From Shouchella clausii (lineage in GTDB: Bacteria > Bacillota > Bacilli > Bacillales > Bacillaceae_D): DNA of 64,000 nucleotides. The position numbers and the translations under genes were made by a program. Below the pieces are notes generated by a model. The model had not been told where the DNA came from, ran no database searches, and saw only the letters and a program-made list of their open reading frames with translations. Positions 5,327 through 50,532 of the stretch are shown one piece after another. Where the stretch lies: NCBI RefSeq assembly GCF_001598215.1, contig NZ_BCXJ01000004.1, positions 1 through 64,000 of the forward strand, read 5' to 3'. Position 1 is the stretch's first letter. Every line of letters begins with the position of its first letter.

Positions 5327-5464
5327 AAACGCGAAAACAGGCTGGGCTAGTGCCCAGCCTGTTTTCAAACTATAGACAAACGCTCGCATCCTTCATTGCT
5401 CCCTCGTTCATATGCTCATTCGCATCTTCACTCGGTTTCGCGCCTCGGCTGACAAGCGTTTTTT
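5327..5464 (-). repeat. two-hairpin 3-prime element, copy A (pyc 3-prime end)
   Basis: Read on the minus strand after pyc: ACGCTTG near 5460, a variable stretch with GAGGGAGCAATGAAGG, the returning arm GCGAGCGTTTG, the linker GTCTATAGTTTGA, then a strong 14-bp hairpin (5334-5347 with 5352-5365, loop of 4) and a T-rich run (TTTTCGCGTTTTTT). The second hairpin also lies just past ctaA on the plus strand and should terminate both converging genes. Related copies occur at 46785, 48150 and 50465. Confidence 0.7.
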
Positions 5465-5519
5465 ATCAGCCTGTTTAGACTGCGTCGCTGCTTTGATAAG
5501 CGTCTACGTTTAATTAACG

Positions 5520-8500
5520 TTACTCGGAAAGTTCAATGATCAAGTCGCCTGTTGAAATCGACTCTCCATCTCGTGCATACACTTTTTTAACCGTACCGCT
5601 AATTGCTGCTTGGACAGTTGTCTCCATTTTCATCGCTTCTGTAATCATCAAATGGTCGCCTTTTTGGACTTTGTCGCCTTCAGCTACAAGTGCCTTAATG
5701 ACGGTTCCTGGCATTGAAGCGCCAATGTGGCTCGGGTTATTTTTCTCCGCTTTCGGACGTGTCACTGTTGTTGTTTTCACGTCCAAATCTTGAATATGAA
5801 CTTCCCGCGGTTGCCCATTCAGTTCAAAATAGACGATTCGTGTCCCGTCTGGTTGTGGGTCCGACACAGATACAAGCTTAACAATTAACGTTTTTCCACG
5901 TTCAATTTCGACTTCAATTTCCTCGCCTAAATGGAGGCCATAAAAGAATGTCGGCGTATCCAGGACAGACACATCGCCAAACCGCTGGCAAAACTGCTCG
6001 TATTCCATAAACACTTTTGGATACAAGGCATAAGAAAGCACGTCGTGGCTCGTTACTTGACGGCCAAGCTCTTCAAATAAGCTTTTGCCGACTGCTTTGA
6101 AATCCACTGGCTTCATATGTTCGCCAGGGCGCCCCTCTATAGGCTGTTTGCCTTTTAAAATAATGCGCTGCAGCTTTTCAGGGAAGCCTTTGTACGGCTG
6201 GCCTAATTGCCCTTGGAAAAATTCCACAACAGAGTCAGGAAAGTCAAGGCTTTCGCCCCGCTCAAAAATCGCTTCTTCAGTCAAATCATTTTGCACCATG
6301 TAAAGGGCCATATCGCCAACTACTTTGGAAGATGGCGTTACTTTCACAATATCGCCAAACAAGTCGTTAACGCGACGGTACATTTGTTTCACTTCATTCC
6401 AGCGATTATACAGCCCAACTGCTTTCGCTTGCTGCTGAAGGTTACTATATTGCCCCCCTGGCATTTCATGCTCATACACTTCTGTATGAGGAGCGTTCAT
6501 ACCGCTTTCAAACCCACGGTAAAATTTGCGCGTATCATGCCAAAATTGATCGAGCTTTTCATAGTTGCCAACATCCATTTTTGGTTGGCGGCTTTTTTCC
6601 GCTAATGCATAATACAAACTGTTTGCGCTTGGTTGTGAAGTCAGGCCGGCCATTGAGCTAACGGCGACATCGACAATATCCACACCTGCATCTACGGCAC
6701 GGGCATAGGTGAAAATACCGTTGCCGCTTGTATCGTGCATATGCAAATGAATCGGAATGTCGACTGCTTCTTTTAACTCAGAGACAAGTTGGTAGGCCGC
6801 TTCCGGTTTTAACAATCCAGCCATATCTTTAATGGCAAGAATATGGGCGCCTGACGCTTCTAATTCTTTTGCCATCTTTTTGTAATAATTTAAATCATAT
6901 TTATCCCTATTTTTGTCCAAAATATCGCCCGTGTAGCATACGGCAGCTTCTGCCACTTTTCCGCTCGCACGCACAGCTTCGATGGCTGGCTTCATTGCTT
7001 CAACCCAGTTTAAGCTGTCAAAGATCCGGAAAACGTCGATGCCTGCTTCAGCCGACTTCTGAACAAAATCAGCAATGACGTTGTCAGGATAGCTTGTATA
7101 ACCGACGCCATTAGAGGCGCGTAAAAGCATTTGGAACAGCACATTAGGCACTTTTTCACGCAACGTAAGAAGCCGTTCCCACGGATTTTCATGCAGAAAA
7201 CGCATGGCGACATCAAAAGTCGCTCCGCCCCACATCTCAAGAGAAAACAAATCAGGAAGCAAGCGCGCTGTAGGTTCAGCAATTTTCTTTAAATCATACG
7301 TGCGAACACGCGTCGCAAGCAGCGACTGGTGGGCATCGCGGAACGTCGTATCGGTTAACAGCACTTTTTGTTCCTGCTTCACCCATTTCGCTAAGCCTTC
7401 TGGCCCTCGCTCATCTAAAATTTGCTTTGTGCCCGCTGGTATCGGCTCGTTTTTATTAAAAGCAGGGACAATCGGCTTGTCAAACAGCGGCTTTTCCCCT
7501 TTTTCCAAGCCTGGATAACCATTAACGACCGTCTCCCCGATAAAGGACAACATTTTTGTCCCCCGGTCTTTCCGTTTAGGAAAGACAAACAGCTCAGGTG
7601 TTTCGTCTATAAAATGAGTATTGTATTCGCCGTTTAAAAATTGTGGGTGTGTGACGACGTTTTCCAAAAATGCAATATTTGTTTTAATGCCGCGAATCCG
7701 AAATTCTCGCAGATTACGAACCATCTTCAAGGCAGCAGCCTCAAATGTTAACGCCCATGTTGACACTTTTACGAGCAATGAATCATAGTGAGGGCTAATG
7801 ACAGCGCCTTGAAACCCGTTTCCAGCATCCAGGCGAACACCAAAGCCGCCACTTGAGCGATAGGCATTGATTCTTCCCGTATCCGGCATAAATCCATTCG
7901 CAGGGTCTTCTGTCGTTACCCGTGATTGAATCGCGTAGCCAAAACAAGCGATGTCTTCTTGTTTAGGAATGTCGATTTCTTTTTCATGGAGTTTGTAACC
8001 GTCGGCAATTTTCAACTGTGACTGGACAATGTCAATGCCAGTAATCATTTCCGTAATCGTGTGTTCAACTTGGACACGAGGATTCACTTCAATAAAATAG
8101 AATGTTCCGTCATCGGTGACGAGAAACTCCACCGTACCGGCGTTTATGTAGCCGACATTTTTCATCAAGTTGACGGCTGCTTCGCAAATATTGTTTCGTA
8201 CTTCCTCGGACAGGGATACGCTTGGCGCAATTTCGACTACTTTCTGATGGCGCCGTTGCACTGAACAGTCCCGTTCATACAGGTGGACAATATTTCCGTG
8301 CTTATCGGCTAAAATTTGCACTTCGATATGTTTAGGGCGTTCGACAAATTTTTCTACGTACACTTCATCATTGCCAAACGCTGATTTCGCTTCAGACTTC
8401 GCCCGTTCATACGATTCTTTTACATCCTTTTTTTCACGGACAATACGCATGCCGCGACCGCCTCCACCTAGGGAAGCTTTGATAATAAACGGATAGCCGT

Positions 8501-8969
8501 GCTGGTCAGCAAACGCTTGGACTTCCTCTAAGCTAGCAACTGGGCCATCGCTCCCTGGAATGACAGGCAACCCTGCTTTTAATGCTTGTTCCCGTGCCTG
8601 TATTTTGTCACCAAACATATGAAGATGCTCAAGCTCAGGTCCGACAAAAATCAGCCCTTCTTCCTGACAACGTCTGGCGAATTCGATATTCTCTGACAAA
8701 AACCCATAGCCTGGGTGAATCGCATCGACATCATGTGCTTTTGCTGTCGCAATGATGTCTTCTATGTCAAGATAAGCATCAATCGGCTTTTTCCCTTCGC
8801 CAACAAGATACGCTTCGTCCGCTTTATAACGGTGAAAAGCACCTGTATCCTCTTTCGAATAGATAGCGACAGTACGGATGTTCAACTCTGAACATGCCCG
8901 AAAAATCCGAATAGCAATTTCCCCGCGATTTGCAACGAGCACTTTTTTAATCGATTTTAATGCATTCAT
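5520..8969 (-). CDS. pyc: pyruvate carboxylase
   Basis: This biotin enzyme carboxylates pyruvate to oxaloacetate, refilling the TCA cycle. The order is: biotin carboxylase (about 1-450; HPGYGFLSEN, ATP-grasp KASLGGGGRGM, VNPRVQVEHTITE), carboxyltransferase (from about 530; TDTTFRDAHQSLLATR, AIKDMAGLLKP, metal ligands in HLHMHDTSG) and a C-terminal biotin carrier with biotinyl-lysine site EAMKMETT. The 1149-residue length is normal for the single-chain bacterial enzyme. The ATG at 8969 is preceded by GGGGAGG at 8 nt; a TTG at 8996 is less likely. It converges with ctaA, as in B. subtilis. ftsW, expected between ylaN and pyc, is absent. The 207 bp upstream hold only a T10 tract after a weak stem and no gene. 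Confidence 0.98.
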   Translation of the reverse strand: MNALKSIKKVLVANRGEIAIRIFRACSELNIRTVAIYSKEDTGAFHRYKADEAYLVGEGKKPIDAYLDIEDIIATAKAHDVDAIHPGYGFLSENIEFARRCQEEGLIFVGPELEHLHMFGDKIQAREQALKAGLPVIPGSDGPVASLEEVQAFADQHGYPFIIKASLGGGGRGMRIVREKKDVKESYERAKSEAKSAFGNDEVYVEKFVERPKHIEVQILADKHGNIVHLYERDCSVQRRHQKVVEIAPSVSLSEEVRNNICEAAVNLMKNVGYINAGTVEFLVTDDGTFYFIEVNPRVQVEHTITEMITGIDIVQSQLKIADGYKLHEKEIDIPKQEDIACFGYAIQSRVTTEDPANGFMPDTGRINAYRSSGGFGVRLDAGNGFQGAVISPHYDSLLVKVSTWALTFEAAALKMVRNLREFRIRGIKTNIAFLENVVTHPQFLNGEYNTHFIDETPELFVFPKRKDRGTKMLSFIGETVVNGYPGLEKGEKPLFDKPIVPAFNKNEPIPAGTKQILDERGPEGLAKWVKQEQKVLLTDTTFRDAHQSLLATRVRTYDLKKIAEPTARLLPDLFSLEMWGGATFDVAMRFLHENPWERLLTLREKVPNVLFQMLLRASNGVGYTSYPDNVIADFVQKSAEAGIDVFRIFDSLNWVEAMKPAIEAVRASGKVAEAAVCYTGDILDKNRDKYDLNYYKKMAKELEASGAHILAIKDMAGLLKPEAAYQLVSELKEAVDIPIHLHMHDTSGNGIFTYARAVDAGVDIVDVAVSSMAGLTSQPSANSLYYALAEKSRQPKMDVGNYEKLDQFWHDTRKFYRGFESGMNAPHTEVYEHEMPGGQYSNLQQQAKAVGLYNRWNEVKQMYRRVNDLFGDIVKVTPSSKVVGDMALYMVQNDLTEEAIFERGESLDFPDSVVEFFQGQLGQPYKGFPEKLQRIILKGKQPIEGRPGEHMKPVDFKAVGKSLFEELGRQVTSHDVLSYALYPKVFMEYEQFCQRFGDVSVLDTPTFFYGLHLGEEIEVEIERGKTLIVKLVSVSDPQPDGTRIVYFELNGQPREVHIQDLDVKTTTVTRPKAEKNNPSHIGASMPGTVIKALVAEGDKVQKGDHLMITEAMKMETTVQAAISGTVKKVYARDGESISTGDLIIELSE

Positions 8970-9175
8970 AACGACTACCTCCCCAACTCGTTTCAAACAA
9001 GCTTTTTTCTTTTTTTATACTTTGAACGATTTTTGTCGTTTTGGCAACTATAAAGTTAAAAATTTTTTCGTTTTAGGCTAAAAAAAAAAGCTAGGTCCGC
9101 TAGATTACTTGCCTTTCTGTTAATCGAAATATTTTTATTTAGCGCTCAACTCACCCCGTCGTGGGTGCGTTATTG

Positions 9176-9208
9176 CAGAAAAACCGGGCAAGTTGCCCGG
9201 TTTTTATT
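9176..9208 (-). terminator. bidirectional terminator after ylaN
   Basis: The stem AAAACCGGGCAA/TTGCCCGGTTTT with a 1-3 nt loop is followed by T-rich runs on both strands. It ends the ylaN transcript, so pyc is probably transcribed on its own. Confidence 0.8.
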
Positions 9209-9485
9209 TTCTCATAGAAGCTTCATGCAGCAGTGCAAGTTTGCGTTCCAATTCGTTCAAAATCATTTTCCCTTTTTCTTCCTCTACTAATTCAAGACGT
9301 ATGGCAAAGTCAATTTCCCTTGACAGGCCAAACATCCGCGTATCTAAAACCTCTTCGTAGAGGGGGCATTGCGGCATCGTCAAATTTTCCAGCTGCACTT
9401 CAATGAGTTTCTGAATTTTTTCAGCATCTGCCTGCAAGAGCGCGTACGCTTTCTCGCTCTGGCTAGTCACAGCATTCGTCGTCAA
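9204..9485 (-). CDS. ylaN: YlaN/UPF0358 family protein
   Basis: This small cytosolic helical protein of 93 residues matches the UPF0358 (DUF1507) family in length and in phrases such as [20 protein letters not shown]. Published work on B. subtilis YlaN links it to iron homeostasis through the regulator Fur; I take that from general knowledge. The start is TTG at 9485, preceded by AAGGAGGGG at 5 nt. Its place just upstream of pyc agrees with B. subtilis, except that ftsW is missing between them. A strong terminator overlaps its stop region. Confidence 0.9.
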
Positions 9486-9644
9486 GGTGTCCCCTCCTTG
9501 GCTAAATGTTCGTTCTACTTACATAGTATCTTTGTTTCCCCGAAATTGCAATCTTTTTCCCTAGTTTCGAACAGGCAGAAGCCGTGACAATTGCGCTATT
9601 CCCCGCTATACTTTTGGTACGGTGTAAAAATGGAGGGTGCTTGA

Positions 9645-10157
9645 ATGGAAGAGTTTGTGTTTTTTATTTCAGGAAAAGTCGCTAGACCACTAACGATTGA
9701 CCCGACTGTATGGATATTCGATGAACGAAAAATCGATTTGGAAGCGTTTTTTGAAAGTGAAGAAGGCTTGCCTGATGACAATGATTTAGTAAGCTACACA
9801 AAAGCAGTAGCAAAAAAGTGGGATAAGGAAATGCTAGAAGGCTCTGAGCCACCGAACCCCAACCGTGATTCAAATCAGATTGCTTTCGAACGGCAAAAAT
9901 GGACAAACGGTTCTTTTGGCATGCCACTAAAGCCCTTTATCCGCAACGCTGCTCCGGATAAAAGGGCAAAAGCAATCGAAATACGCACGACTGACGGCGA
10001 AACATTTCCTTTCAGCATTGAGCAAGGCGATTCGTTTATTGCTGCTTTTTCCGAAAAAGGCCAGCCTTTAAAAGAGGATGGCCCTGTCCATGTCTATCTT
10101 GCCGATGGCAGCAGCAAAGAACCCGTTCGCCGCGTCCGCGAAATCGTGTTCGTCTAA
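9645..10157 (+). CDS. ylaL: YlaL-like conserved protein of unknown function
   Basis: This is a 170-residue soluble acidic protein with no signal peptide or membrane helix. The N-terminus (FISGKVARPLTIDPTVWIFD) and the position between ylaK and ylaN support YlaL. I know no demonstrated function and see no catalytic motif. GGAGGG about 12 nt before the ATG is the likely ribosome site. It converges with ylaK, and the two stop codons overlap (TAA at 10155-10157, TAG at 10154-10156 on the other strand), leaving no terminator between them. Confidence 0.8.
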   Translation: MEEFVFFISGKVARPLTIDPTVWIFDERKIDLEAFFESEEGLPDDNDLVSYTKAVAKKWDKEMLEGSEPPNPNRDSNQIAFERQKWTNGSFGMPLKPFIRNAAPDKRAKAIEIRTTDGETFPFSIEQGDSFIAAFSEKGQPLKEDGPVHVYLADGSSKEPVRRVREIVFV

Positions 10158-11491
10158 AGCAAGTCTGCGGCAAGCTGCGCCAGCGCTGAGCGTTCTCCTT
10201 TGATCAAGCGAACATGTCCGCTCAGCGCTTCCTTTTTAAACGTTTCAACCGCATATGTTAGCCCATTTGTATATTCATCCAAATAGGGGTGATCGATTTG
10301 TTCAGGGTCCCCCATCAACACAATTTTGCTGCGTTCCCCAACTCTCGTTAATATTGTCTTCACTTCGTGTTTCGTTAAGTTTTGCGCTTCATCAATAATG
10401 ATGAACTGGTCGGGAATGCTCCTGCCACGAATGTAAGTAAGCGCCTCTACTTGAATCGAACTCATCCCCGCGAGAATCCGATCCAGCTCGCCTGGCTTCT
10501 TTGTGTCAAATAAAAATTCAAGATTATCGTAAATAGGTTGCATCCAAGGTTTTAGTTTTTCCTCTTTCTCGCCTGGCAAATAGCCGATGTCTTTGCCGAG
10601 TGGGACGACAGGGCGGGCGACAACAAGCTTTTTATAAAGGTGGAGGTCTTCCGTCTGCAAAAGCCCAGCAGCAAGCGCCAATAACGTCTTGCCTGTCCCG
10701 GCTTTTCCAATCATGGTCACAAGCGGCAAGTCTGTCCGCAACAGAAGCTCCAATGCCATCTTTTGCTGGGCATTACGTGGACGAATTCCCCATACATGCT
10801 CATGCTCGCCTACAAGCGGTTTAATCGAATGGCCAAGCAAATCGACTTTTCCAAGCGCTGAACTAGAAGGTTGGACGTGGTCTTTTAAAACGACAAATTG
10901 GTTTGGGAAAAAGGAGCGGTCAGGCAACATTGTCACAGACACTTGGCCACTTTTGTAAAATTGGTCGATGACTTCCTGGTCGACATAGCAAGTTTCAAAC
11001 CCATCATAGCTTTTATCTGTTTCAATGACGCGGTCATTTAGGAAATCTTCTGTTCTTAAATCAAACGCATCTGCCTTAACGCGAACTAGCGCGTCTTTGC
11101 TGACAAGCACGACTTCACATCCATTTGCTTTTTCATTCTCTTCCTTCTGCAAATTTAAGGCAACCGCAATGATGCGATTGTCATTTGTCATTTCAGCAAA
11201 GCTATCTCTTAAATGCTTGAAAGAGCGATGATTTAGCTCAACGCGGAATACCCCGCCCCGATCAAGGACGACGCCTTGATGGAGTTTCCCGCCATCACGC
11301 AATTGGTCGACCATTTTTGCGATCAAACGCGCATTGCGCCCGATTTCATCCATATTACGTTTTTTAGAATCTACTTCTTCCAATACGACAGCGGGAATGA
11401 CCACTTCATGCGGCTGAAATTGGTAGATCGCATATGGATCTTGAAGCAGGACATTTGTGTCTAATACATAAATTTGATTAGCTTTCCCCAA
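10154..11491 (-). CDS. ylaK: PIN-PhoH family ATPase/ribonuclease YlaK
   Basis: This cytosolic protein joins an N-terminal PIN nuclease-like domain (YVLDTNVLLQDP, VLEEVDSKK, with Asp/Glu metal ligands, about 1-140) to a C-terminal PhoH ATPase domain (Walker A GKAGTGKTLLALAAG, Walker B FIIIDEAQNL). PhoH2-type proteins of this architecture act as RNA helicase/ribonucleases in other bacteria; the role here is inferred. The start is TTG at 11491, 8 nt after GGGAGG, giving 445 residues, close to B. subtilis YlaK. The open frame extends to 11569 but that part is not conserved. It converges with ylaL with a 3-nt overlap. Confidence 0.93.
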   Translation of the reverse strand: MGKANQIYVLDTNVLLQDPYAIYQFQPHEVVIPAVVLEEVDSKKRNMDEIGRNARLIAKMVDQLRDGGKLHQGVVLDRGGVFRVELNHRSFKHLRDSFAEMTNDNRIIAVALNLQKEENEKANGCEVVLVSKDALVRVKADAFDLRTEDFLNDRVIETDKSYDGFETCYVDQEVIDQFYKSGQVSVTMLPDRSFFPNQFVVLKDHVQPSSSALGKVDLLGHSIKPLVGEHEHVWGIRPRNAQQKMALELLLRTDLPLVTMIGKAGTGKTLLALAAGLLQTEDLHLYKKLVVARPVVPLGKDIGYLPGEKEEKLKPWMQPIYDNLEFLFDTKKPGELDRILAGMSSIQVEALTYIRGRSIPDQFIIIDEAQNLTKHEVKTILTRVGERSKIVLMGDPEQIDHPYLDEYTNGLTYAVETFKKEALSGHVRLIKGERSALAQLAADLL

Positions 11492-11735
11492 ATCATACGC
11501 CTCCCGACATGTGCAGCTCAATTTCCTTTTTAAGGCAAGCCTCCTTTTCATTATCGTATGTAGGAGCAAAACAACTTAGACGAAAGTTTAGAAAGAAATG
11601 CAGGCGTTTCTTTTTTTTCGTAAATTGTTTACAATAACAATAACGGTTCAAGTTCCTCCATCCGTGTGTGCCTGTTTTTCCAACAAGAAATTGGATAAAT
11701 CATCCATTTAAAACTCGAGGGAGGTGCAGCCAAAA

Positions 11736-11936
11736 ATGAAAGTAAAATGCGTTATGTGCGACACAATTAATGATATTGAAGATTTTAGCACCCTTGCCAA
11801 GCGGCTGCGCAACCGTCCTATCCATACCTATATGTGCGACTCTTGTAAAGCAAGGATTGAAAAACGGACGATCGAGCGCAAAGCGACTGGCTTATTTTAT
11901 ACCCCCCATCAAAAAGAAAAGAGTGACTGGCCGTAA
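11736..11936 (+). CDS. ylaI: YlaI, small zinc-ribbon protein (DUF2197)
   Basis: This 66-residue protein has two CxxC pairs (CVMC near residue 5, CDSC near residue 41) that should bind one zinc ion. The phrase AKRLRNRPIHTYMCD is the family hallmark. The ATG at 11736 is chosen because GGGAGGTG lies about 9 nt upstream; a GTG at 11724 overlaps that site. Function is unknown. The stop codon lies in the loop of a strong terminator. Confidence 0.9.
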   Translation: MKVKCVMCDTINDIEDFSTLAKRLRNRPIHTYMCDSCKARIEKRTIERKATGLFYTPHQKEKSDWP

Positions 11937-11954
11937 AAGCCAGTCACTCTTTTC
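11918..11954. terminator. bidirectional terminator, ylaI/ylaH
   Basis: A 14-bp perfect stem (11918-11931 with 11941-11954), AAAAGAGTGACTGG/CCAGTCACTCTTTT, has a 9-nt loop containing the ylaI stop. It serves the converging ylaI and ylaH. Confidence 0.88.
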
Positions 11955-11976
11955 GATTGGTATTGTCACCTTTCGT

Positions 11977-12309
11977 TTATACATTTTGCGATTTTTCTTT
12001 GCGGTGGAGATGCAGCCGAAAACGATAAATGCCTAGCACGACAGCGGAAATGGCTAATACAGCTAAAATCGGCGCGCCAAAAACGAATTCCAAAAACCAG
12101 AGCCCGAAACTGCCAATGACTAACAAAACGTAAATAACGACCATTTTCAACAATGGCAGTTTCCTCGCAAAACCGAGATTGAAAACAATCACACAAAGGA
12201 CGATTGTCGCTACAAAAGCAATAAAACCAATCCATGGGTTCTCGTACGTCGCTTGCATAAGCCACGGCATGCTTTCAAGCGGAACCGTTTGCTCAGCTAG
12301 AAATTCCAT
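11977..12309 (-). CDS. ylaH: YlaH-like membrane protein
   Basis: This 110-residue protein has three hydrophobic helices (about 24-45, 54-73 and 76-95) and a basic C-terminal tail. Its length, and its position just downstream of bipA and facing ylaI, match B. subtilis YlaH. Its function is unknown. The ATG has GAGGAAGGG about 11 nt upstream, a somewhat long spacing. It lies 37 bp after the bipA stop and may be co-transcribed with it. Confidence 0.85.
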   Translation of the reverse strand: MEFLAEQTVPLESMPWLMQATYENPWIGFIAFVATIVLCVIVFNLGFARKLPLLKMVVIYVLLVIGSFGLWFLEFVFGAPILAVLAISAVVLGIYRFRLHLHRKEKSQNV

Positions 12310-12346
12310 GTTCTTTTCAGCCCTTCCTCACCAATAATGATAATGA

Positions 12347-14185: not shown

Positions 14186-14292
14186 GTTTTTTTCTCTCCT
14201 TCTATGTTAAGCCCATTTTATCCATCCGTACTGGAAGGCTATGGGCGATCATGGATGAAAGGTTCTCTCTCATTCAGGCTTTTAACTGTACA

Positions 14293-20710: not shown

Positions 20711-20745
20711 AAAAAGACACCTTGCAGTCATACTGGCAAGGTGTC
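20711..20745 (-). terminator. terminator of the SR1-like RNA
   Basis: A 10-bp stem (20736-20745 with 20716-20725), GACACCTTGC/GCAAGGTGTC, with a 10-nt loop is followed by TTTTT on the minus strand. Confidence 0.88.
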
Positions 20746-20754
20746 CATCATCGT

Positions 20755-20889
20755 TTATTTTTTTGTGAGCGTTTCAGTAGCTTGTTGTTGGCAACGTGAG
20801 CAAGATGATACCGCGTACAAACGGCTGACTTTTTCCCCTTCGAAATGCTCCACGGCTTCATTACAATGTTGGCAAACAATTGTACCCAC
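20755..20889 (-). CDS. sr1P: SR1P, GapA-binding peptide encoded by SR1
   Basis: This 44-residue peptide starts MGTIVCQHCNEAVEHFEGEK and ends in a basic tail, with two cysteine pairs (CQHC near residue 6, CSRC near residue 30). The MGTIVCQ...HFE.EKV..LY pattern is that of SR1P, which in B. subtilis binds glyceraldehyde-3-phosphate dehydrogenase GapA and promotes RNase J1 activity. I prefer the GTG at 20889, because GAGGAG lies 8 nt upstream and it gives the conserved N-terminus; the ATG at 20895 is only 2 nt from that site. RNase J1 is encoded in this window too. A longer frame on the same strand (20748-20957) is a shadow. Confidence 0.82.
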   Translation of the reverse strand: MGTIVCQHCNEAVEHFEGEKVSRLYAVSSCSRCQQQATETLTKK

Positions 20890-20913
20890 TTGCATCGCTC
20901 CTCTTCATTAGAT

Positions 20914-20927
20914 TGAAATCGCTTTCT
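20914..20927 (-). promoter_or_regulatory. cre-like site (CcpA) in the SR1 leader
   Basis: The minus-strand sequence AGAAAGCGATTTCA differs from the cre consensus TGWAANCGNTNWCA at one position. It lies between the promoter and the SR1P start, suitable for a roadblock by CcpA under glucose. SR1 of B. subtilis is glycolytically repressed through CcpN and CcpA. Confidence 0.6.
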
Positions 20928-20940
20928 ATCGCTTATGTTT

Positions 20941-41362: not shown

Positions 41363-41390
41363 AAGTCTAATTCCTCCTTTGCAAATCCAA

Positions 41391-41429: not shown

Positions 41430-41568
41430 TGTTAATTGAGAATGAATTTAATCTAGAGACGTAAATCTTCACATTCCTGCCTTACTTATGTAGCGTTCGC
41501 TTTTGAAAGATTTAGCGATTTATGCTATTCTCAACAAAGCAATGATATTGAGGAAGGAGTGGTCATGA

Positions 41569-42348: not shown

Positions 42349-42378
42349 AAAAATACCAGCTTTTTGCTGGTATTTTTT
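42348..42378. terminator. bidirectional terminator, ykuT/ykuS
   Basis: Stem AAAAAATACCAGC/GCTGGTATTTTTT (13 bp, loop of T5), overlapping both gene ends. Confidence 0.9.
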
Positions 42379-42622
42379 AGTGTTGAGTCACAATTTCGTC
42401 GACACGTTGGCCGATTTCTTCTGCACTTAAGCCTTCAGCATGGATAATGCTCATTTGCCCAGGAACACTGATGCCGGCAACATCCGCATTTCTTCCAGAA
42501 ACAATGCAGCATTCGCAGCCTTGTCCATCTTGTTCATTTTCAATTTGTACGACTTCATAGCCTTTGGACTGAAGCTCTTGCTGTACATCTGACAAATTCG
42601 ATTGTACCCCTATTTTAGCCAT
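42377..42622 (-). CDS. ykuS: YkuS/UPF0180 family protein
   Basis: This small 81-residue protein starts MAKIGVQSNLSDVQQELQSK and contains GCECCIVSGRNADVAGI, fitting UPF0180. It has no known function. The ATG follows GAGGGGGTG. It is the last gene of the dap cluster on the minus strand. Confidence 0.9.
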   Translation of the reverse strand: MAKIGVQSNLSDVQQELQSKGYEVVQIENEQDGQGCECCIVSGRNADVAGISVPGQMSIIHAEGLSAEEIGQRVDEIVTQH

Positions 42623-42673
42623 ATGGCACCCCCTCGTTCATTTCCACATTAGTATGCGCTGCAAACGAACGTT

Positions 42674-43810: not shown

Positions 43811-45024
43811 GTTGCCACCACTCCGTCAATTTGCACCAATGCGTGGCGGAAGTGGCCAGCAAACGTGTCGACTTCTGCTTTTGTAAGCGTAAGCGGCGGA
43901 AGCAAACGAACGATCGTTTGTTGGGTGACATCAATGAGCACGCCTTTTTCCATCATCATTTGTTGAAGTTTTTTCGTGTTATTCGCCGTTAGTTTCGTCG
44001 GCAAACCAATCATCATCCCTTTGCCGCGGAACGCTTCTAAAATGCTTGGAAATTCCTGTTGCAATTTTGTTAATGTATCATGCAAGTAGGCTGCCGTTTG
44101 TTGGCTATCGGCGAGGCCACCTTGTTGCCGGAGAACACGGAGCACGGCAAGGCCAAGTGCACAGCTTAACGGCGAAGGAGCAAACGTCGTGCCATGGTCA
44201 CCAGGGGAAAACAACTCGCTCCAACCCTGCTTGACGATGATGCCACCAAGTGGCAGTCCTCCGCCTACTCCTTTTGCAAAAAGGACGACGTCAGGACTCA
44301 ATTCGGCGTGCATGTAGGCAAACAGCTTGCCTGTGCGTCCCATGCCCGTTTGAATTTCGTCCATGCAAAACAGCACGCCCTCCTGTTTGCATAACGCCTG
44401 TGCTTCTTGTAAAAATGAATGGGATAATGGGATGACTCCCCCTGAGCCAAGCACCGGTTCCATGAGCAGCGCAGCAGGCCTGCTCTTTTTGATGACTGCT
44501 CGCAACTCTTCGACATTTTCCCTCTCCACTTCATAGACAGGCAAATCATGTTTCGGAAAGTCTTGGTACACGCCTTTTTGCCGTGTTAGTTTTAAAGCAC
44601 CCAACGTTCGTCCGTGAAAACTATTTTTTAAAACGACAATGCCTCGTTTCGTTGTCTTTTGTGCCGCGCTCCATTTATGGATCAACTTAACAGCTGCCTC
44701 TGTCGCTTCAGCGCCGGAATTCGCAAAAAACACTTTGCCGCCAAGCGTAGCCTCACTGAGTTGTTCGGCAAGCTCAACCGCCGGTTTGTTTACATACAAG
44801 TTGGAAATATGCAGAAATTTATGACCTTGCTCATTAAGTGTTTTCATCACTTCTGGATGAGAGTGGCCAATCACATTGACAGCAAGACCTGTAATTAAAT
44901 CTAAATACGATTTGCCGTTCTCATCGATCAAATAATTGCCTTCTCCCCGGTCGATAACAAGGGGCAACCGCCCATATGTCCCCATAATCGCCGCTTTATC
45001 CCGCGCAATCCAGTCCACTACCAA
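43807..45024 (-). CDS. class-III aminotransferase (ArgD-like) in the dap operon
   Basis: This PLP enzyme of the acetylornithine/succinyl-DAP aminotransferase family has [39 protein letters not shown] (PLP Asp) and Schiff-base Lys in [14 protein letters not shown]. It lies between dapH and dapL, with 4-nt overlap to dapL. The likely role is transamination of N-acetyl-2-amino-6-oxopimelate, the step done by PatA in B. subtilis. That role is inferred from context; acetylornithine activity is possible too. The start may be TTG at 45024 or GTG at 45018, both after AAGGAG. Confidence 0.9.
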
Positions 45025-45040
45025 TCCACTCCTTTTTTAT

Positions 45041-45072
45041 GAAAACAGCTTTGCCCTTTAGGCAAAGCTGCA
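45041..45072 (-). terminator. hairpin between dapH and the aminotransferase gene
   Basis: A 10-bp perfect stem CAGCTTTGCC/GGCAAAGCTG, loop of 5, followed by TTTTC on the minus strand. It could be a partial terminator inside the operon. Confidence 0.72.
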
Positions 45073-45081
45073 CACGATACG

Positions 45082-45804
45082 TTATAGGTCTTCATTTAAA
45101 CGGCGAAGCTCCAGCTTTATTTCCGTTTTGCCTTTTGTTTTCTCATCAATTTCTTTAATCACGCGTGCTGGCGTTCCAGCAACCACTGTATTGGCAGGAA
45201 CATCTTCTGTTACAATCGCACCAGCCGCTACCACCGCGCCAGCACCTACACGGACGCCTTCTAAAATCACGGCATTTGCGCCGATGACAACGCCGTCTTC
45301 AATAATGACAGGAGAAGCAGATGGTGGTTCGATGACACCAGCCAACACAGCACCGGCGCCAACGTGACAATTTTTCCCGACAGTCGCCCGGCCGCCAAGG
45401 ACAGCATTCATGTCAATCATTGTGCCTTCGCCAATGACAGCGCCGATATTAATGCTGGCACCCATCATAATAACAGCACCTTTTCCAATTTCCACTTGGT
45501 CGCGGATAATGGCGCCTGGTTCAATTCGTGCTTCTACCTCTTTTAAATCAAGCAGAGGAATGGCCGAATAACGACGGTCATTTTCAACAACAGTATCTTC
45601 AATCAACGCAGCATTTTCGTTAAGGACAGCTTCAATCTTGCTCCATTCGCCAAACACTACGCCCGTGTTGCCATTCATAAATGACTGCACGCCTTCGCCA
45701 AAGGAAAGGTTGTCAAGTTGACCCTTTATGTAAACTTTTACAGGAGTTTTCTTTTCAGATTTAGAAATAAACTCAATAATTTCGTTTGCATCCATCATTT
45801 TCAT
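45082..45804 (-). CDS. dapH: tetrahydrodipicolinate N-acetyltransferase
   Basis: This enzyme acetylates tetrahydrodipicolinate with acetyl-CoA, opening the acetylase branch of DAP/lysine synthesis. The 240-residue protein has a left-handed beta-helix of hexapeptide repeats (about 85-210: [35 protein letters not shown]) and ends with a helical tail. The ATG at 45804 follows AAAGGAGG at 8 nt and gives the [10 protein letters not shown] start known from YkuQ. It is the first gene of the operon. Confidence 0.95.
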
Positions 45805-45832
45805 GTATGTAGCCTCCTTTGTTCTGTTCATT

Positions 45833-45861
45833 ATGATAAAGTGTCACGCTTAAAATTGCAA
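45833..45861 (-). promoter_or_regulatory. sigma-A promoter of the dap operon
   Basis: Minus-strand TTGCAA (45856-45861), 17 nt and TATCAT (45833-45838), about 30 nt before the dapH start. Confidence 0.55.
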
Positions 45862-45865
45862 TGGA

Positions 45866-46762
45866 CTAGCTTAAAATCGCTAGAAAGAACGTCAACGAAA
45901 ACAAGCTGACAAGTGTGGTGACGAGCGTGATCGAGGAGACAAGCTTTGGTTCTGAATCGAATTGGACCGCATACATCACAATTGTCGCTGCGCTTGGCAT
46001 TGCCGCTGATATAATCAACACTTTGCTGAGAATTTCGCTAATAGGTAAAAAGGAAACGATCACAAATGCTACCATAGGGGAAATCGCCATCCGTATGACC
46101 GTCGCAACGGTCAGCTTTTCCCACGCAAACCCACGTAATGGGATCATCGCTAATTGCATCCCTAAAATTAACATTACCGTCGGAATGGCCGCCTCCGCGA
46201 CGATATCAATTGGTTGAAAGAGGTTTGGTGGAAGTGCGACCCCACCCACATTTAGTCCGAGCGCTAGGACAGTTGCATACGTTGCTGGCATTTTCAAAAC
46301 CGCTAATACGGCCCCTTTCATAGCGGCTTTGCCTCTGGCTGCGTAATAAACGCCGAAAATATTCATGATAATCGATTGCAACACCATAAACGAAACAGCG
46401 AGATCAAAAGCACTCTCGCCATAAGCAAATAAAATAATCGGCGTCCCGTAATTCCCCACATTCATAAAGGAAGTTGCTAAGATCATTCCACTTTCTTCGC
46501 TGAGACTTAGTTTGCGCAGTTTTGCATACCCTTTTGTAATGATAATTAACGACACAAGCAGAAGAAGGGCAAACAAGGCCATATAGGCATATTGAGCGTC
46601 AAGATTCCCCGTATAAAAAGTACGAAAAACAAGGCACGGCGTCATAATATAAATCGCTACAGATGACACCGAACGTATGTCGAGCATAAACGCCCGCTGC
46701 AACAAAAAACCAGCTGCAAAAATAGAACACACGGGCAATACGACTTGCAAAAAAATCCCCAT
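45866..46762 (-). CDS. AEC-family transporter (auxin efflux carrier type)
   Basis: This 298-residue integral membrane protein has about ten helices in two five-helix halves. FMNVGNYGTPIILFAYG in the first half and MPSAATIVMYAVQFD in the second are the paired family motifs. Bacterial members export or import organic acids such as malate; the substrate here is unknown. The ATG follows AAGGACGGTG. It is transcribed away from the dap promoter on the same strand, with no shared operon evidence. Confidence 0.88.
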   Translation of the reverse strand: MGIFLQVVLPVCSIFAAGFLLQRAFMLDIRSVSSVAIYIMTPCLVFRTFYTGNLDAQYAYMALFALLLLVSLIIITKGYAKLRKLSLSEESGMILATSFMNVGNYGTPIILFAYGESAFDLAVSFMVLQSIIMNIFGVYYAARGKAAMKGAVLAVLKMPATYATVLALGLNVGGVALPPNLFQPIDIVAEAAIPTVMLILGMQLAMIPLRGFAWEKLTVATVIRMAISPMVAFVIVSFLPISEILSKVLIISAAMPSAATIVMYAVQFDSEPKLVSSITLVTTLVSLFSLTFFLAILS

Positions 46763-46784
46763 TCAGACACCGTCCTTAAAAACA

Positions 46785-46866
46785 AAAAACGAACGAAACC
46801 GTCCGTTTCAGACTGTAGGCAAACATTCGCTTACATTGCCGTTTGCCTCGCTCCTATGCTTTAGAA
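46785..46866 (-). repeat. two-hairpin 3-prime element, copy B (HD gene 3-prime end)
   Basis: In transcript sense (minus): GAGGCAAACGGCAATG, then GCGAATGTTTGCC (GGCAAAC/GTTTGCC hairpin), linker TACAGTCTGA, a short GAAAC/GTTTC hairpin and T6. It is the most diverged copy. It lies about 130 bp past the HD-domain gene. Confidence 0.6.
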
Positions 46867-46993
46867 CAGTTGTTCCATACGCAAGAAAACCATTGCCCAT
46901 GAATACACGTTTCTTCGCATCTCCCCTCGCCATAAGCGTTCAGTCTGAGTGTGTTGCCAACGTTGTCGGCAACACATGAACGAAAACGTCCCA

Positions 46994-48007
46994 TTAAGAC
47001 ACAATTTCCTCGATAAACACCGTGTTCTCTTGTGCCAAATCAATCGTTTGCACAGTAATTTGCTGTCCACCATTATTCGTATGCAAAATATGAATAACAG
47101 GGCGTTGCGGCAAACCGCTATTTTGGCTTACAACAATGCCGTGCAAGCCGTTGGACAGCACGACTTGGCTTCCCGTCGGATAAAGTGCCACACTCCGCAA
47201 AAAATCATTCATAAACACGTGGCTAAAACGTTTATTCGTAAAAGCCAACATAAATTCGCATGCTTCTCCAGGCTCCATCAATGCTTCTCCGTCACGACGG
47301 TGCGTCAAATGGTCAAACGCGTTGGCAATCGCCACAATTTGTGCAAATTCATGGACAGCCGAAGCAGCCACTTTGCGGGGATGGCCTGTTTGCGAAAAGT
47401 CTTCATGATGGCATAAGGCAACATGGGCGACAACTTTGCCGAACTCAGCTACCGTTTTCAAAAAGTTGTATCCTCTCCACGTATGGTCTGACCCATGCAA
47501 AACGCCAGGCTCATCATAGGATGCAGGAAGCACCTTTCCGATATCATGAAGCAGTGCAGAAATCGCCAGTTGCTCGAGCTTTTTGTCCGAGTACCCGTGC
47601 CGGGCACCGATCGTAGTCGAAATAAGACCAACCATTAGCGAGTGCGCATAGAGGGAATCGCTTCCGTTTCGAATAAACTGAAGAAATTCTTGTGTTTTGG
47701 CGGTTTCCACTACTTTTTCCATTACCGCTAAAACACGCTCTTTCCACTCCTCTTCCCCATTGCTAATAAAACGAAGGGAATCTTCAAAAATAGAATCGAT
47801 TTGCGTTTTAGGAGACGCTGCCTCCTCAGGCTCGCTTTCCTCTGGAAGATCAAGGGGCACTAAATGGACACCAAATTTTCGCAATCTTGCAATATGGTTA
47901 GCTGTTAAAGAAGCCCCCTTACTTAGCAGAACCTGGCCGTCCATGGAAAATATCTCTTTCCCAAGGGATGCGCCAGGCAAAACATCTTCAATGTTGACAT
48001 ACTTCAT
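46994..48007 (-). CDS. HD-GYP-like phosphohydrolase domain protein
   Basis: This cytosolic protein of 337 residues has an N-terminal region (YVNIEDVLPGASLGKEIFS), an HD domain (HSLMVGL, LLHDIGK, LHGSDHTWRGYNFL, ALCHHEDFSQTGHP) and a C-terminal beta-rich extension. The layout is that of HD-GYP c-di-GMP phosphodiesterases, but the GYP triplet is not clear (VHEFAQIVAIANAFDHLTHR follows instead), so activity on c-di-GMP is uncertain. I choose the ATG at 48007. The nearest strong ribosome site, GAGGAGGGG, is about 30 nt upstream, with a hairpin in between. Confidence 0.85.
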   Translation of the reverse strand: MKYVNIEDVLPGASLGKEIFSMDGQVLLSKGASLTANHIARLRKFGVHLVPLDLPEESEPEEAASPKTQIDSIFEDSLRFISNGEEEWKERVLAVMEKVVETAKTQEFLQFIRNGSDSLYAHSLMVGLISTTIGARHGYSDKKLEQLAISALLHDIGKVLPASYDEPGVLHGSDHTWRGYNFLKTVAEFGKVVAHVALCHHEDFSQTGHPRKVAASAVHEFAQIVAIANAFDHLTHRRDGEALMEPGEACEFMLAFTNKRFSHVFMNDFLRSVALYPTGSQVVLSNGLHGIVVSQNSGLPQRPVIHILHTNNGGQQITVQTIDLAQENTVFIEEIVS

Positions 48008-48052
48008 ACAAAGATACACCTGGCATCGCAGCCAGGCCCCTCCTCTTTTTCA
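48005..48052 (-). promoter_or_regulatory. leader with ribosome site, hairpin and short frame before the HD gene
   Basis: GAGGAGGGG is followed by hairpin CCTGGC/GCCAGG (6 bp) and then AGGTG before the HD start. An ATG inside the hairpin, 10 nt after GGAGGGG, begins a 12-codon frame (MPGVSLYEVCQH) that overlaps the HD start out of frame. Confidence 0.5.
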
Positions 48053-48149
48053 GATTACGTCACGAATGATTGCCTTTTCATTATAACGAACTCTGGTCAC
48101 GAAAGAAAGGAAAAAACGCTAAAACGCCCCTTGGCAAAGGAATCTAAGC

Positions 48150-48233
48150 TAAAAAACCTTGCTGTCAGGCAAGGTTTCAGACTGTAGACGAACGCTCGCA
48201 CCCTTCATTGCTTCCCTCGGCTCCAAGCGTTTT
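48150..48233 (-). repeat. two-hairpin 3-prime element, copy C (mscS 3-prime end)
   Basis: In transcript sense (minus): ACGCTTGGAGCCGAGGGAAG, GCAATGAAGGGTGCGAGCGT, linker TCGTCTACAGTCTGA, a 9-bp hairpin AAACCTTGC/GCAAGGTTT with 6-nt loop, then T6. It starts about 13 nt past the second mscS gene and closely matches copy A. Confidence 0.72.
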
Positions 48234-48245
48234 CTATCCGTTCGG

Positions 48246-49346
48246 CTAAGATGATTCTCCAGCTTTTTGAAACTGTTCATCATCTTGGTGGTCCAATACA
48301 ACGATTGGCTTTAAGACGGATATTCCTTCGTCCTCTAAAATATCGAGAATATCGTAGTTGACTTCCTGTTTAATCTCATGCCATTCAGACCAAACGACCG
48401 TTTTCGTAAAGTAATACACAAAAATGTTATAGCTAGATTCACCAAATTCATCAAAGTAAACCATTACTGTATCTTGGACAACGCCAGGATGGTTAAGGAT
48501 CCGTTCGCGAATCTTCTCAACTGCTCTTTGCAACTCGAATCTTGTTGCTTCTTGACCGACGCCTATCGAATAGTTTACACGCCGCATATTCATTTCCGAC
48601 CAGTTGGTAATTGCTTCGTTAGACAACGTTTTGTTCGGGACAATCACAACTGCATCCGCAAACGTGCGGATTTTCGTGCTGCGAAACGTGATGTCTTCTA
48701 CGACGCCTTCAACAGACGGCGTAGAAATCCAATCCCCTTTCTTAAAGGGCTTTTCCATAATAATAACAACACCGCCGAACAAATTGGCAACCGTTTCTTG
48801 GGCAGCTAACGCAAACGCTAATCCACCAAGACCAAGGCCCGCGATAAATCCGTTTACGTTCACGCCCATCGCTGACAAGCAAGCAACGATTGTCAAGGCA
48901 ATCACTACGAAACGAAGAATGTTTGAAATAAAGGGAATGAGCATATGGTCGTCTCTTAAATGCAATTTTTGTTTTGCAAACGCCATAAATGTCCCATGGG
49001 TGGAAACATAATTATAGAGCCCCCAACCGCCAAGCACAATCAACACACTGCCATAAATTCGGTTCAATAAAAGCTGTTCTTTCATATCAATGCCCCACGA
49101 TTTTAAAGCAATGTAAGTACCGATCACGATAAAAAAAACACGCAACGGCCGCTCAAATGAAAGGAGCAGCTGCGTTAAAAGAGGCACATTCGTTTTTTTA
49201 GCAAACGCTAAAATGACTTTAAACAAATACTTTGTGAATAGTTTGCGAAACACGAGAAAAATAAGAAATATCCCGATTGCTGTGAGCAGGTTCATCCACG
49301 GAAACTCAATCAAATAGTCTGTTATGTTCTTCCAGATGGTGTTCAT
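48246..49346 (-). CDS. mechanosensitive channel MscS family protein (second copy)
   Basis: This is a 366-residue channel protein, larger than YkuT, with about five N-terminal helices. The pore helix is FIAGLGLGGLAFALAAQETVANL, then VVIIMEKPFKKGDWI (beta domain) and C-terminal alpha/beta domain. The ATG at 49346 follows AGAGGT; the frame to 49382 lacks a site. Together with YkuT and the BCCT transporter it points to osmotic adaptation. Confidence 0.93.
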   Translation of the reverse strand: MNTIWKNITDYLIEFPWMNLLTAIGIFLIFLVFRKLFTKYLFKVILAFAKKTNVPLLTQLLLSFERPLRVFFIVIGTYIALKSWGIDMKEQLLLNRIYGSVLIVLGGWGLYNYVSTHGTFMAFAKQKLHLRDDHMLIPFISNILRFVVIALTIVACLSAMGVNVNGFIAGLGLGGLAFALAAQETVANLFGGVVIIMEKPFKKGDWISTPSVEGVVEDITFRSTKIRTFADAVVIVPNKTLSNEAITNWSEMNMRRVNYSIGVGQEATRFELQRAVEKIRERILNHPGVVQDTVMVYFDEFGESSYNIFVYYFTKTVVWSEWHEIKQEVNYDILDILEDEGISVLKPIVVLDHQDDEQFQKAGESS

Positions 49347-49406
49347 GGCAAAAACCTCTCTTAACAAAATGTACGGCTTCATTTTAACATGATCTAGTGG
49401 ACGAGG

Positions 49407-49601
49407 CTATTGCAAGAGTTGCCGTAGCAGCTTCCCAATGTGCGAGCTAGTCACTAGCCCATCGCTGTCCAAAGGGAAAAACTCCTTTGAAAATTCTTCG
49501 TGTCGAGGCACTGCCTGTCGTTTGTTTGCCGCATTTCGGCTTGCCCACTTGAGAGTCAAATAAATAGAAACAATTGCCGTCGCCACCCAATGCCGTTTCA
49601 C
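49407..49601 (-). CDS. small hypothetical protein with N-terminal membrane helix
   Basis: This is a 64-residue frame from the GTG at 49601, 7-8 nt after AAGGGGG; the ATG at 49607 abuts that site. It has one hydrophobic stretch (WVATAIVSIYLTLKW) followed by a charged tail ending IGKLLRQLLQ. I do not recognise it. The good ribosome site and position between two gene ends support a real gene, but coding is not certain. Confidence 0.5.
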   Translation of the reverse strand: MKRHWVATAIVSIYLTLKWASRNAANKRQAVPRHEEFSKEFFPLDSDGLVTSSHIGKLLRQLLQ

Positions 49602-49881
49602 AGACATGCCCCCTTTCCTATCTAGATGGAATTAGCTTGCGCGTAAAAACAACCAATTATGACGGGAGATTGGCGACTTACAGGGGCACTGCCCCTTATG
49701 AATGGCTAAAAATTTGTCTATACTATTGTTATCAAGCGCATGACTAGCCTGGAGCTTGTACACAAATTGTTGTTCCTTCTCATATGTGAACAATTTATAA
49801 ACAACGGCTAATTTCATTAAGTGCTCACAATTTCTTGTTATACTAGCATCGCACTTAAAGATGAATGGAGGATGCTCTCAC

Positions 49882-50451
49882 ATGTTTTTTAAACGGTTAA
49901 GTCTTGCCATTTTCCTGTTTCTCCCATTGTTCGTTTTCCCACTCACAGCCGGTGCACATTCCCATTTTCAATCAGCAACGCCTGGAGAAAACGAAGAAGT
50001 CAATGAACCTGTTACGGAAGTCCAAGTGACTTTTGATGGTGGGATTGGCACAGCCGATATGACGATCACAAATGCCGACACAGACGAAGAGGCAGCAATC
50101 GAGTCCATTGATGTAGAAAACACGTCGATGACAGCGATTTTGCAGGAGCCTCTAAGCAATGGGTCATACGTGGTTGAATGGCAAAACATTGGCGATGACG
50201 GCCATTCTTTGGATGGATCCTTTTCGTTTCAAGTAAATGCGGAGGAAGAAACGACTCCTGAGGATGAAAGTACCGCAGAAGAAAATGCCGCAAACGAAGT
50301 AAAGCAAGATCGAGACCACGAAGCAAGTGGACCAGAAGAAGAAGAAACGAACACAGCGGGCACGTCTGTTCTTTGGCTTTCTATTATCATTGCTGGCCTT
50401 TTTATTGTAGCGCTCGTCATTTTTACAGTCTTACGCAAACGCAAATCATAA
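49882..50451 (+). CDS. CopC-domain protein, membrane anchored
   Basis: This exported protein of 189 residues has a signal peptide (cleavage near TAGAHS), a CopC domain starting at the mature His (HSHFQSATPGENEEV; the N-terminal HxH is the expected Cu(II) site, with GDDGHSLDGSFSF as the other), an acidic Glu/Asp/Thr linker and a C-terminal helix (about 165-184) plus RKRKS. It probably binds copper on the outer surface. No CopD partner lies next to it. The ATG at 49882 follows GGAGG at 10 nt. Confidence 0.9.
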   Translation: MFFKRLSLAIFLFLPLFVFPLTAGAHSHFQSATPGENEEVNEPVTEVQVTFDGGIGTADMTITNADTDEEAAIESIDVENTSMTAILQEPLSNGSYVVEWQNIGDDGHSLDGSFSFQVNAEEETTPEDESTAEENAANEVKQDRDHEASGPEEEETNTAGTSVLWLSIIIAGLFIVALVIFTVLRKRKS

Positions 50452-50464
50452 AAAATCACTCAGA

Positions 50465-50532
50465 ACGCTTGCCAAACACGACGTGGGCAAGCGTTTGTCT
50501 ACAGTCCGAGCCCTTGTCAAAAGGGCTTTTGT
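50465..50532 (+). repeat. two-hairpin 3-prime element, copy D (copC 3-prime end)
   Basis: Plus strand: AACGCTTGCC - 12 nt - GGCAAGCGTT hairpin, linker TGTCTACAGTCCGA, hairpin AGCCCTT/AAGGGCT (loop of 5), T-rich run TTTTGTTTT. It is the only copy on the plus strand and follows a plus-strand gene, so orientation to the gene is conserved. Confidence 0.7.

Follow-up and report, generated by a model that had tools for sequence, protein, structure and literature searches.

The closest described relatives of the element reported here are IS1272 and TnSha1 of staphylococci, IS1272 being assigned to the IS1182 family (PMC4923244, PMC5678879). IS1272 targets hairpins without sequence preference, and several of these hairpins are terminators by RNA-seq (PMC4923244); in the insertions that the two reports describe for IS1272 and TnSha1, the stem-loop was deleted or replaced and target duplication was absent (PMC4923244, PMC5678879). 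A possible "pathway b", in which attack at the 5′ foot duplicates the whole hairpin, was drawn in one of these reports as a hypothesis only (PMC5678879). As described there, IS1272 resembles the probable partners of our small element in belonging to the IS1182 family and in using the same kind of hairpin target, and it differs from the small element in that its target hairpin is lost, whereas here the whole hairpin is duplicated. Stem-loop replacement of the IS1272 type was rejected for our element, as a hairpin stands on both sides of it.

Short non-autonomous relatives of IS1182 are also found in Methanosarcina acetivorans, where MITEs of 160 and 169 bp, with ISMac2 as partner, have copy numbers of 14 and 7 and are tabulated with two DR/IR size figures (26 and 4; 25 and 0) (PMC3852290). 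They are similar in length to the small element, and their table entry in that paper contains neither a terminator target nor a conserved structure. In Streptococcus pneumoniae, BOX, RUP, and SPRITE are small structured intergenic repeats, and SPRITE is terminator-like (PMC10969869). While SPRITE as described there is itself the terminator-like part, the terminator beside our element is a property of the insertion site and is present in duplicate. Group IIC introns also insert at intrinsic terminators; they are ribozyme-bearing retroelements that are not known to make a target duplication, whereas the element here has inverted-repeat ends and a duplication. A group IIC intron was rejected as the identity of the element, since Rfam scans of the window (i.e., the whole 64-kb stretch of DNA analysed) and of 11 loci gave no group II match, and about 154 bp is too short. 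In a literature search that had most subscription journals and ISfinder outside its reach, we recognised, beyond the papers cited above, no report of this element or of whole-terminator duplication by IS1182.

A structured repeat family at gene ends

The preliminary description of this DNA presented a family of four copies; in the genome containing the window (G000), the 22-base right end, with as many as 3 mismatches allowed, instead occurs 86 times (none for the reversed pattern used as control), and a covariance model gave 102 matches. In another genome of this genus (G001), the covariance model gave 81 matches; of 299 genomes sampled from the order, 44 contained relatives, and core-model matches came from 26 of 116 sampled genera. 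The element is about 154 bp long, which is too short for a transposase, and is made up of a terminal hairpin on the left (about 30 nt; one inverted-repeat end) and a core of about 124 nt (the other end). Its left end starts with GAG in Shouchella, not CAG, and is retained in 27 of 85 copies, the other 58 having no recognisable left end. By eye, a 5′-shortened copy with hairpins on both sides seems to be present at locus L007, where the unanchored scan scored 19 (control, 18) and its left window stopped short of the place. A search for a kilobase-sized autonomous copy in G000, in which right ends only were sought within 8-kb regions (one of 4.35 kb), found no closing right end at 20 left-end sites. 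One copy of the element had no match in plasmid and phage collections, and neither did the protein of the earlier-named HD gene in viral contigs.

Within the window, the four places first noted all carry the shared right end (4 matches; shuffle mean 0.34; 4 reached in 1 of 100 shuffles), which at each of them adjoins an unrelated hairpin and a T-run, and all four copies lie 3′ of an ORF on the strand of the element. The gene names given to these neighbours (pyc, HD gene, mscS, and copC) are those of the preliminary description, and ORF positions alone were used here for the context of the four copies. The places were borne out and their extents revised (e.g., copy B is longer than 46785-46866), and the stretch GAGGGA(A)GCAATGAAGG, reported as shared, is real but only part of the core of about 124 nt.

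Copy A has its core at 5366..5473 on the minus strand (model R1, 98.6 bits, model positions 1-124), with the right end at 5366 and the inner left end CAGGCTGATAAAAAACG at 5473; the core measures 108 nt compared to the standard 124, and an anchored left-terminus scan recognised no outer left end. The second copy (T2) of its host terminator hairpin, AAAACAGGCTGGGC-ACTA-GCCCAGCCTGTTTT, was identified at 5334..5365 (minus strand) by direct reading and fold. A converging ORF (4411-5325) terminates just past this hairpin. Copy B is diverged and full-length (core at 46809..46947, minus strand; R1 28.3 bits, E 1.3e-4, model positions 1-124), and by eye its core is of the long type with an internal hairpin extension. 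Its left terminal hairpin TGTTGCCGACAACGTTGGCAACA at 46951..46975 (minus strand; anchored scan at up to 5 mismatches, and direct reading) corresponds to GGTTGTCGACAAAGTCGATAACC of other copies. The first copy of the terminator (T1), now worn, at 46977..46991 (minus strand; own-flank score 23 versus a best other-copy score of 15) stands directly after the stop of ORF 46994-48019 and by direct reading equals the facing part of T2 at 13 of 14 bases, T2 itself being AAACGGACGGTTTCGTTCGTTTTTT at 46785..46808 (minus strand; direct reading and fold). Copy C is internally deleted with both stem ends kept (48178..48244, minus strand; R1 40.6 bits, E 1.1e-7), and its T2, AAACCTTGCCTGACAGCAAGGTTT, occupies 48154..48177 on the same strand (direct reading and fold). 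Copy D is a short, internally deleted remnant at about 50464..50508 on the plus strand, which model R1 did not match at E ≤ 0.001 and which was identified by its right end GTTTGTCTACAGTCCG (2 mismatches in 22) and its outer stem ACGCTTGCC...GGCAAGCGT; the fold of 50440-50535 had a z of -4.0, and the host terminator T2 with its T-run, AGCCCTTGTCAAAAGGGCTTTTGTTTT by direct reading, lies at 50509..50535 (plus strand) after ORF 49861-50451.

Terminator duplication and the probable IS1182 partners

Judging from the sequences, the second hairpin is the terminator of the host gene itself, different at each site, and it varies yet keeps its structure because each copy has a different host terminator. 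Right flanks fold at -8 kcal/mol or below in 73 of 85 copies, compared to 7 of 85 when shuffled. Duplication is assessable in the 27 of 85 copies with a left end, and in 25 of these 27 two-ended copies the own left and right flanks were mutual best matches in the anchored scan, with a margin of at least 8 score points in 21 and of only 1 to 3 points in 4, while 2 (L049 and L067) fail; an unanchored flank scan detected duplication in 22 of 81 copies. Two empty sites were found, that of L015 in G007 and that of L053 in G011, each with one terminator where the filled allele has two. At L053, a fresh insertion was rejected as the cause of the difference, and precise loss in G011 is preferred as simpler because both G001 and G007 carry the element there. 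Among other genera (one locus per genome), the scan detected duplication at 14 of 29 loci and did not show it at 15. The "two-part terminator" first suggested did not hold, as the second hairpin is unrelated among copies, is part of the site, and has a duplicate on the opposite side where testable; of the suggested "small mobile repeat with its own terminator," the mobile repeat stands, and the terminator is an existing one that was entered and duplicated. The marks of a MITE are present, namely target-site duplication, element-free sites, terminal inverted repeats matching those of an IS1182 element, and a multicopy element too short for a transposase.

All four transposases scanned matched the IS1182-family model NF033551 (E 6.5e-116 to 1.2e-146; 388 to 489 bits, cut-off 270; L243 frame interrupted), and both of the two scanned for Pfam domains contained DDE_Tnp_1_6 and DUF772. 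Compared with an IS1182 element in G001, the small element agrees in 14 of 16 right-end bases and in 15 of 18 left-end bases. Such ends with a terminator on both sides were read in IS1182 elements at L243, L244 (imperfect), L247, L249, and L254, and several end-sharing elements, in the same and in other genera, have an open transposase frame. Of 8 IS1182 loci scanned in G001, 4 had both features and 4 did not show the duplication; both features were likewise detected at 12 of 30 further IS1182 loci, the 18 where the scan did not show the duplication including many fragments. Whole-palindrome duplications were found at L243, L247, L249, L254, L277, L279-L281, L309-L312, L324-L326, L337, and L338; a palindromic target, as reported for some IS1182 members, is a property of these partners too, and whole-hairpin duplications of 19-34 bp are common to the small element and the IS1182 elements. 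G000 itself holds IS1182 remnants only. IS1182 elements with the core inside were rejected: R1 matched at 3 of 28 IS1182-type loci, in each case over no more than a 46-nt hairpin at the end.

The repeat family, the terminator duplication, the element-free sites, and the ends and duplication held in common with IS1182 are read from sequence, and they suggest that the family is very probably a MITE-type, non-autonomous element moved by IS1182 transposases that work at the hairpin feet of terminators. Mechanistically, the element would insert into intrinsic transcription terminators by means of a transposase that IS1182-family insertion sequences, which have the same ends, likely provide in trans. 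On each strand, this enzyme may join the 5′ foot of the hairpin to the element, a cutting geometry in which the two feet would lie one hairpin apart, so that gap repair would leave a complete terminator on each side. The gene should retain a working terminator, making insertion nearly harmless, and afterwards one terminator copy might decay or the element might be lost from between the two copies. Other transposases could share these ends and this target.

Core structure, orientation, and competing readings

The core has a conserved structure, in which 21 of 36 pairs show a change on both sides across genera and the covariation score was 0.271, compared to 0.122 ± 0.007 for shuffled and at most 0.083 for slid versions. 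The earlier inference of selection on RNA structure is upheld by this covariation for the core and not for the second hairpin, and a plain MITE would not be expected to keep such structure. One strand of the core seems to be favoured in these alignments, because, with the weak helix 4 excluded, G-U exceeds A-C by 76 to 6 among paired positions, with 52 of the 76 G-U cells coming from two near-constant columns. A known Rfam family was rejected, since the only window match at gathering score was SR1, elsewhere in the window, and none of 5 matches in 11 loci at E ≤ 1 overlapped the core. It is possible, though we think it unlikely, that the core functions as a structured RNA, or as a structure of single-stranded DNA, and spreads by homing to terminators. 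If so, each insertion would give the core a gene end to ride and a ready 3′ terminator, genomes would hold a distributed set of about 100 similar RNA modules, and the structure would be kept via cis help to IS1182 transposition or via RNA binding of a cellular partner.

The covariation and the G-U excess would also suit a host-beneficial family of cis-regulatory or stabilising 3′-UTR RNAs with the variable hairpin as terminator module, as would the gene-sense orientation of the element in 36 of 45 one-way contexts in G000. We nevertheless consider such a family improbable: duplicated flanking terminators and element-free sites are marks of insertion, the upstream terminator in fresh copies should halt transcription before the element, two columns account for most of the G-U cells, and in 29 other genomes (one locus each) the element is in gene sense in 3 of 14 one-way contexts and opposite in 11. 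As this sample runs opposite to G000, a universal orientation to genes was rejected, and the two samples together decide neither for nor against the 3′-UTR RNA role that the preliminary description had offered as one option. The preliminary description had named four copies only, lack of covariation, and random placement relative to gene ends as grounds for doubt; what was found is far more than four copies, covariation, and 31 copies in G000 between converging genes versus 2 between diverging ones.

Mobility through machinery other than IS1182, be it a retroelement that works at terminators, as group IIC introns do, or some unknown DDE enzyme, is about as improbable. Co-occurrence is weak, with any NF033551 match in 31 of 44 genomes with the small element versus 197 of 299 overall, and some genomes in which no IS1182 match was found have many copies of the element (G031, G091, G218, G249, G263, and G304, with 8 to at least 11 matches each); 5′-shortened copies, such as that at L007 (by eye, unconfirmed by scan), would suit target-primed reverse transcription. 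However, later deletion accounts equally for shortened copies, inverted ends are accounted for by a DNA transposon and not by a retroelement, and IS1182 elements, several with an open transposase frame, show the same inverted repeats at both ends and likewise have the whole hairpin duplicated. Finally, chance likeness of unrelated terminators with a short common motif, favoured only by the small copy number within the window, is practically negligible given 86 copies of the 22-mer against 0 for its reversed control and core matches in 26 genera.

With IS1182-mediated movement as the preferred reading, our study brings to light a structured element in 26 of 116 sampled genera, without an Rfam match in the scans made, and offers an experimental system comprising the small element, open transposase frames, and sites with and without the element. 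The duplications provide what appears to be evidence from nature that transposition in the IS1182 family can duplicate a terminator in full, earlier a hypothetical branch of a model (PMC5678879), with hairpin length setting duplication length. Overall, they show one route by which genes gain doubled terminators.

A repeat family flanked by duplicated terminators

The four copies in the window (A, B, C and D) were regarded in the preliminary description as a family of four. All of them share, as described there, a right end (the inverted-repeat end of the element core that faces the downstream terminator) similar to GCGAGCGTTTGTCTACAGTCTG in transcript sense, directly followed by a hairpin with a T-run, but the family is far larger, as this end was counted 86 times in the genome (G000) at no more than 3 mismatches (0 times for the pattern read backwards). 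Outside the window, 81 copies were fetched with 1.5 kb on either side and compared in register. A full copy reads, in order, terminator copy T1, left terminal hairpin GAGGTTGTCGACAAAGTCGATAACCGCCCT, a 124-nt core that starts CAGACTGATAGAAAACG and ends CGTTTGTCTACAGTCTG, terminator copy T2, and the T-run; a longer core type carries ~37 nt extra (core lengths 124 and 161). Cores are near-complete in A and B and have internal deletions in C and D, and the left hairpin and a worn T1 are still visible in B. Some cores form head-to-tail arrays of 3–4 units of ~124–130 bp (G089:C38:3003-3518, L196 1501-1873, and L212 1501-1930), mostly without space for a left hairpin between units. At locus L154, from position 4001, the left end continues into self-folding sequence (GCGAATAGAAC...GTTCTATTCGC), which makes a new long hairpin.

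The second hairpin, previously described as a variable part of the element, is indeed present at each copy, but it is the host terminator in duplicate, with a copy at either end of the element where both ends are kept. Local comparison of the right flank with upstream sequence found a matching stretch on both sides in 22 of the 81 loci. For an anchored flank test, the set was 85 copies (the 81 loci plus the four in the window), of which 27 keep the left end; the other 58, without a recognisable left end, fall outside the duplication test. In 25 of these 27 (2 fail), the two flanks of a copy matched each other better than they matched the right flank of any other copy, by at least 8 score points in 21 of the 25 and by 1–3 points in 4. 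Right flanks folded at −8 kcal/mol or below in 73 of 85 copies (7 of 85 when shuffled). Duplications have a median length of 25 bp (range 9–34) that tracks hairpin length, e.g., 25 bp at L015 (AAACGCCC-ACATTGCTT-GGGCGTTT) and 29 bp at L004 (ACCCCTTCTC-TTTTTAAGG-GAGAAGGGGT). Judged from these sequences, the mobile origin of the small element and the duplication of terminators are near certain.

Core structure and position at genes

The core alignment comprised 32 of 51 matches to R1, a covariance model of the core made from 45 copies, and was realigned with MAFFT; the 19 left out were the three window copies, second array units, extra copies from included genomes, copies from a few other genomes (e.g., L192 and L193), and L169, L175, and L181 of genome G006 (75, 62, and 45 bits). 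Across the 32 rows, a 36-pair structure fits 91.0% of cells; RNAalifold supplied all pairs but those of helices 4 and 5, which were hand-drawn from one row, and this favours the fit somewhat. Selection on RNA structure had been proposed earlier from the second hairpin; in this alignment of the core, 21 of the 36 pairs are altered on both sides. Covariation of the core was 0.271, compared to 0.122 ± 0.007 in shuffles and at most 0.083 in slid versions. The share of fitting cells is about 98% or higher for helices 1–3, 85.4% for helix 5, and 61.5% for helix 4; helix 5 (the inner hairpin) is less decisive alone, scoring 0.348 versus 0.308 at a −3 column slide, with its further-pair-type count attained by 140 of 500 shuffles. 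G-U exceeded A-C cells by 76 to 6 without helix 4 and by 81 to 24 with it, pointing to one favoured strand, though 52 of the 76 G-U cells fall in two columns. No Rfam match overlapped the core in the window and 11 loci. Elsewhere in the window, SR1 small RNA (RF02376, 51.8 bits) lies at 20711-20937 on the minus strand.

The copies had also been described as following gene 3′ ends in the same orientation. By longest-ORF, uncurated gene calls, the 85 copies in G000 include 36 in gene sense and 9 against in one-way contexts (p = 7e-5); a further 31 are flanked by converging ORFs, 2 by diverging ones, and 7 went unscored, whereas a 29-genome sample gave 3 in gene sense and 11 against (6 converging, 2 diverging, 7 unscored). 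Closeness to gene 3′ ends is thus clear in G000, but there is no general rule of orientation.

Distribution and sites without the element

Searching the genome and its relatives with R1 gave matches in part of the genus and of the order. Within the genus, 6 of 13 genomes had matches (G000 102, G011 105, G001 81, G007 57, G009 29, and G006 4), with at most 150 candidates scored per genome. Across the order, matches occurred in 44 of 299 genomes and 26 of 116 genera, with at most 11 candidates scored per genome and stricter filters than in the genus search. In other genera, 14 of 29 loci (one locus per genome) had the duplication no more than 120 nt to the left of the core. Fetched loci of G000 are 99.7% identical to those of Shouchella tritolerans (40 alignments >1.5 kb).

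The L015 site is filled in G000, G011, and G001, and G007 lacks the element there and has one terminator; gain in the common line and loss in G007 both fit. At the L053 site, it is present in G000, G001, and G007, while G011, of the same species, has exactly one 25-bp terminator between 100% identical flanks. Because more distant genomes carry the element, the best reading of its absence here is that it was precisely lost from between the two terminator copies.

IS1182 elements with matching ends

At many loci in other genera, the left end resembles CAGTGTGTAGACAAAGT and the right end, in inward reading, is CAGACTGTTGACAAAC. A partner search of 299 genomes for the right end without its preceding C, which the small element has, found it in 48. 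Among 14 such regions fetched, five contain IS1182-family elements flanked by the terminator on each side, namely L243 (~1558 bp) and L244 (~1541 bp, duplication imperfect), whose transposase frames are interrupted, and L247 (~1831 bp), L249 (~1730 bp), and L254 (~1523 bp), with open frames of 449, 455, and 456 aa, respectively. Four transposases scored 388 to 489 bits against the NF033551 profile (cut-off 270), and both of two scanned with Pfam contain DDE_Tnp_1_6 and DUF772. A second short family (~210 bp; L225, L227, and L228, the last at the same place as L250) has the same end type and terminator duplication but a different cargo (GTTGATC...CCCGCGG...GATCAAC); by eye, like cargo lies within the L249 element at 2735-3005, ahead of the transposase.

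The same-genus genome G001 holds eight NF033551 matches above cut-off, and four of these loci show an IS of 1536–1537 bp whose palindromic duplications measure 21, 22, 28, and 22 bp; at L278 the end is present and no duplication was found, and L282-L284 yielded no matching end. Searching 21 chosen genomes, 15 of which had matches, supplied 30 more IS1182 loci; the duplication was seen at 12, two of them with variant ends (L327 and L330) and one a short element (L331), and not at the other 18, many of them fragments. L327 and L330 have different ends (CAGAGTGTTGAAA...TTCAACAGC), and their duplicated flanking hairpins are 33–34 bp long and have longer runs of A and T. Duplications around IS1182 elements span 19 to 34 bp. 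Compared with the IS ends of G001, the small element has 14 of 16 bases equal at the right and 15 of 18 at the left, where it starts with GAG in Shouchella and the IS with CAG.

From these shared ends and targets, IS1182 is the likely mover. IS1182 presence does not track the small element (any match in 31 of 44 element genomes versus 197 of 299 overall): no IS1182 match was found in G031, G091, G218, G249, G263, and G304, each with 8–11 element matches among at most 11 candidates scored, and G000 has IS1182 remnants only. Either the transposase was lost after bursts or other movers acted.

IS1272/TnSha1 of staphylococci, assigned to the IS1182 family in PMC4923244 and PMC5678879, likewise targets hairpins, some of them terminators confirmed by RNA-seq; there, however, the hairpin is deleted and no duplication made, whereas here it is duplicated. 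PMC5678879 also sketches a possible 5′-foot attack that would duplicate a whole stem-loop, and both papers refer to Siguier and colleagues for palindromic-target IS1182 members. IS1182-related MITEs of Methanosarcina appear in a table of PMC3852290. Our literature search recognised no report of the small element or of whole-terminator duplication. On sequence grounds, the small element is a new non-autonomous element in the IS1182 orbit, with a target duplication that takes in whole terminators.
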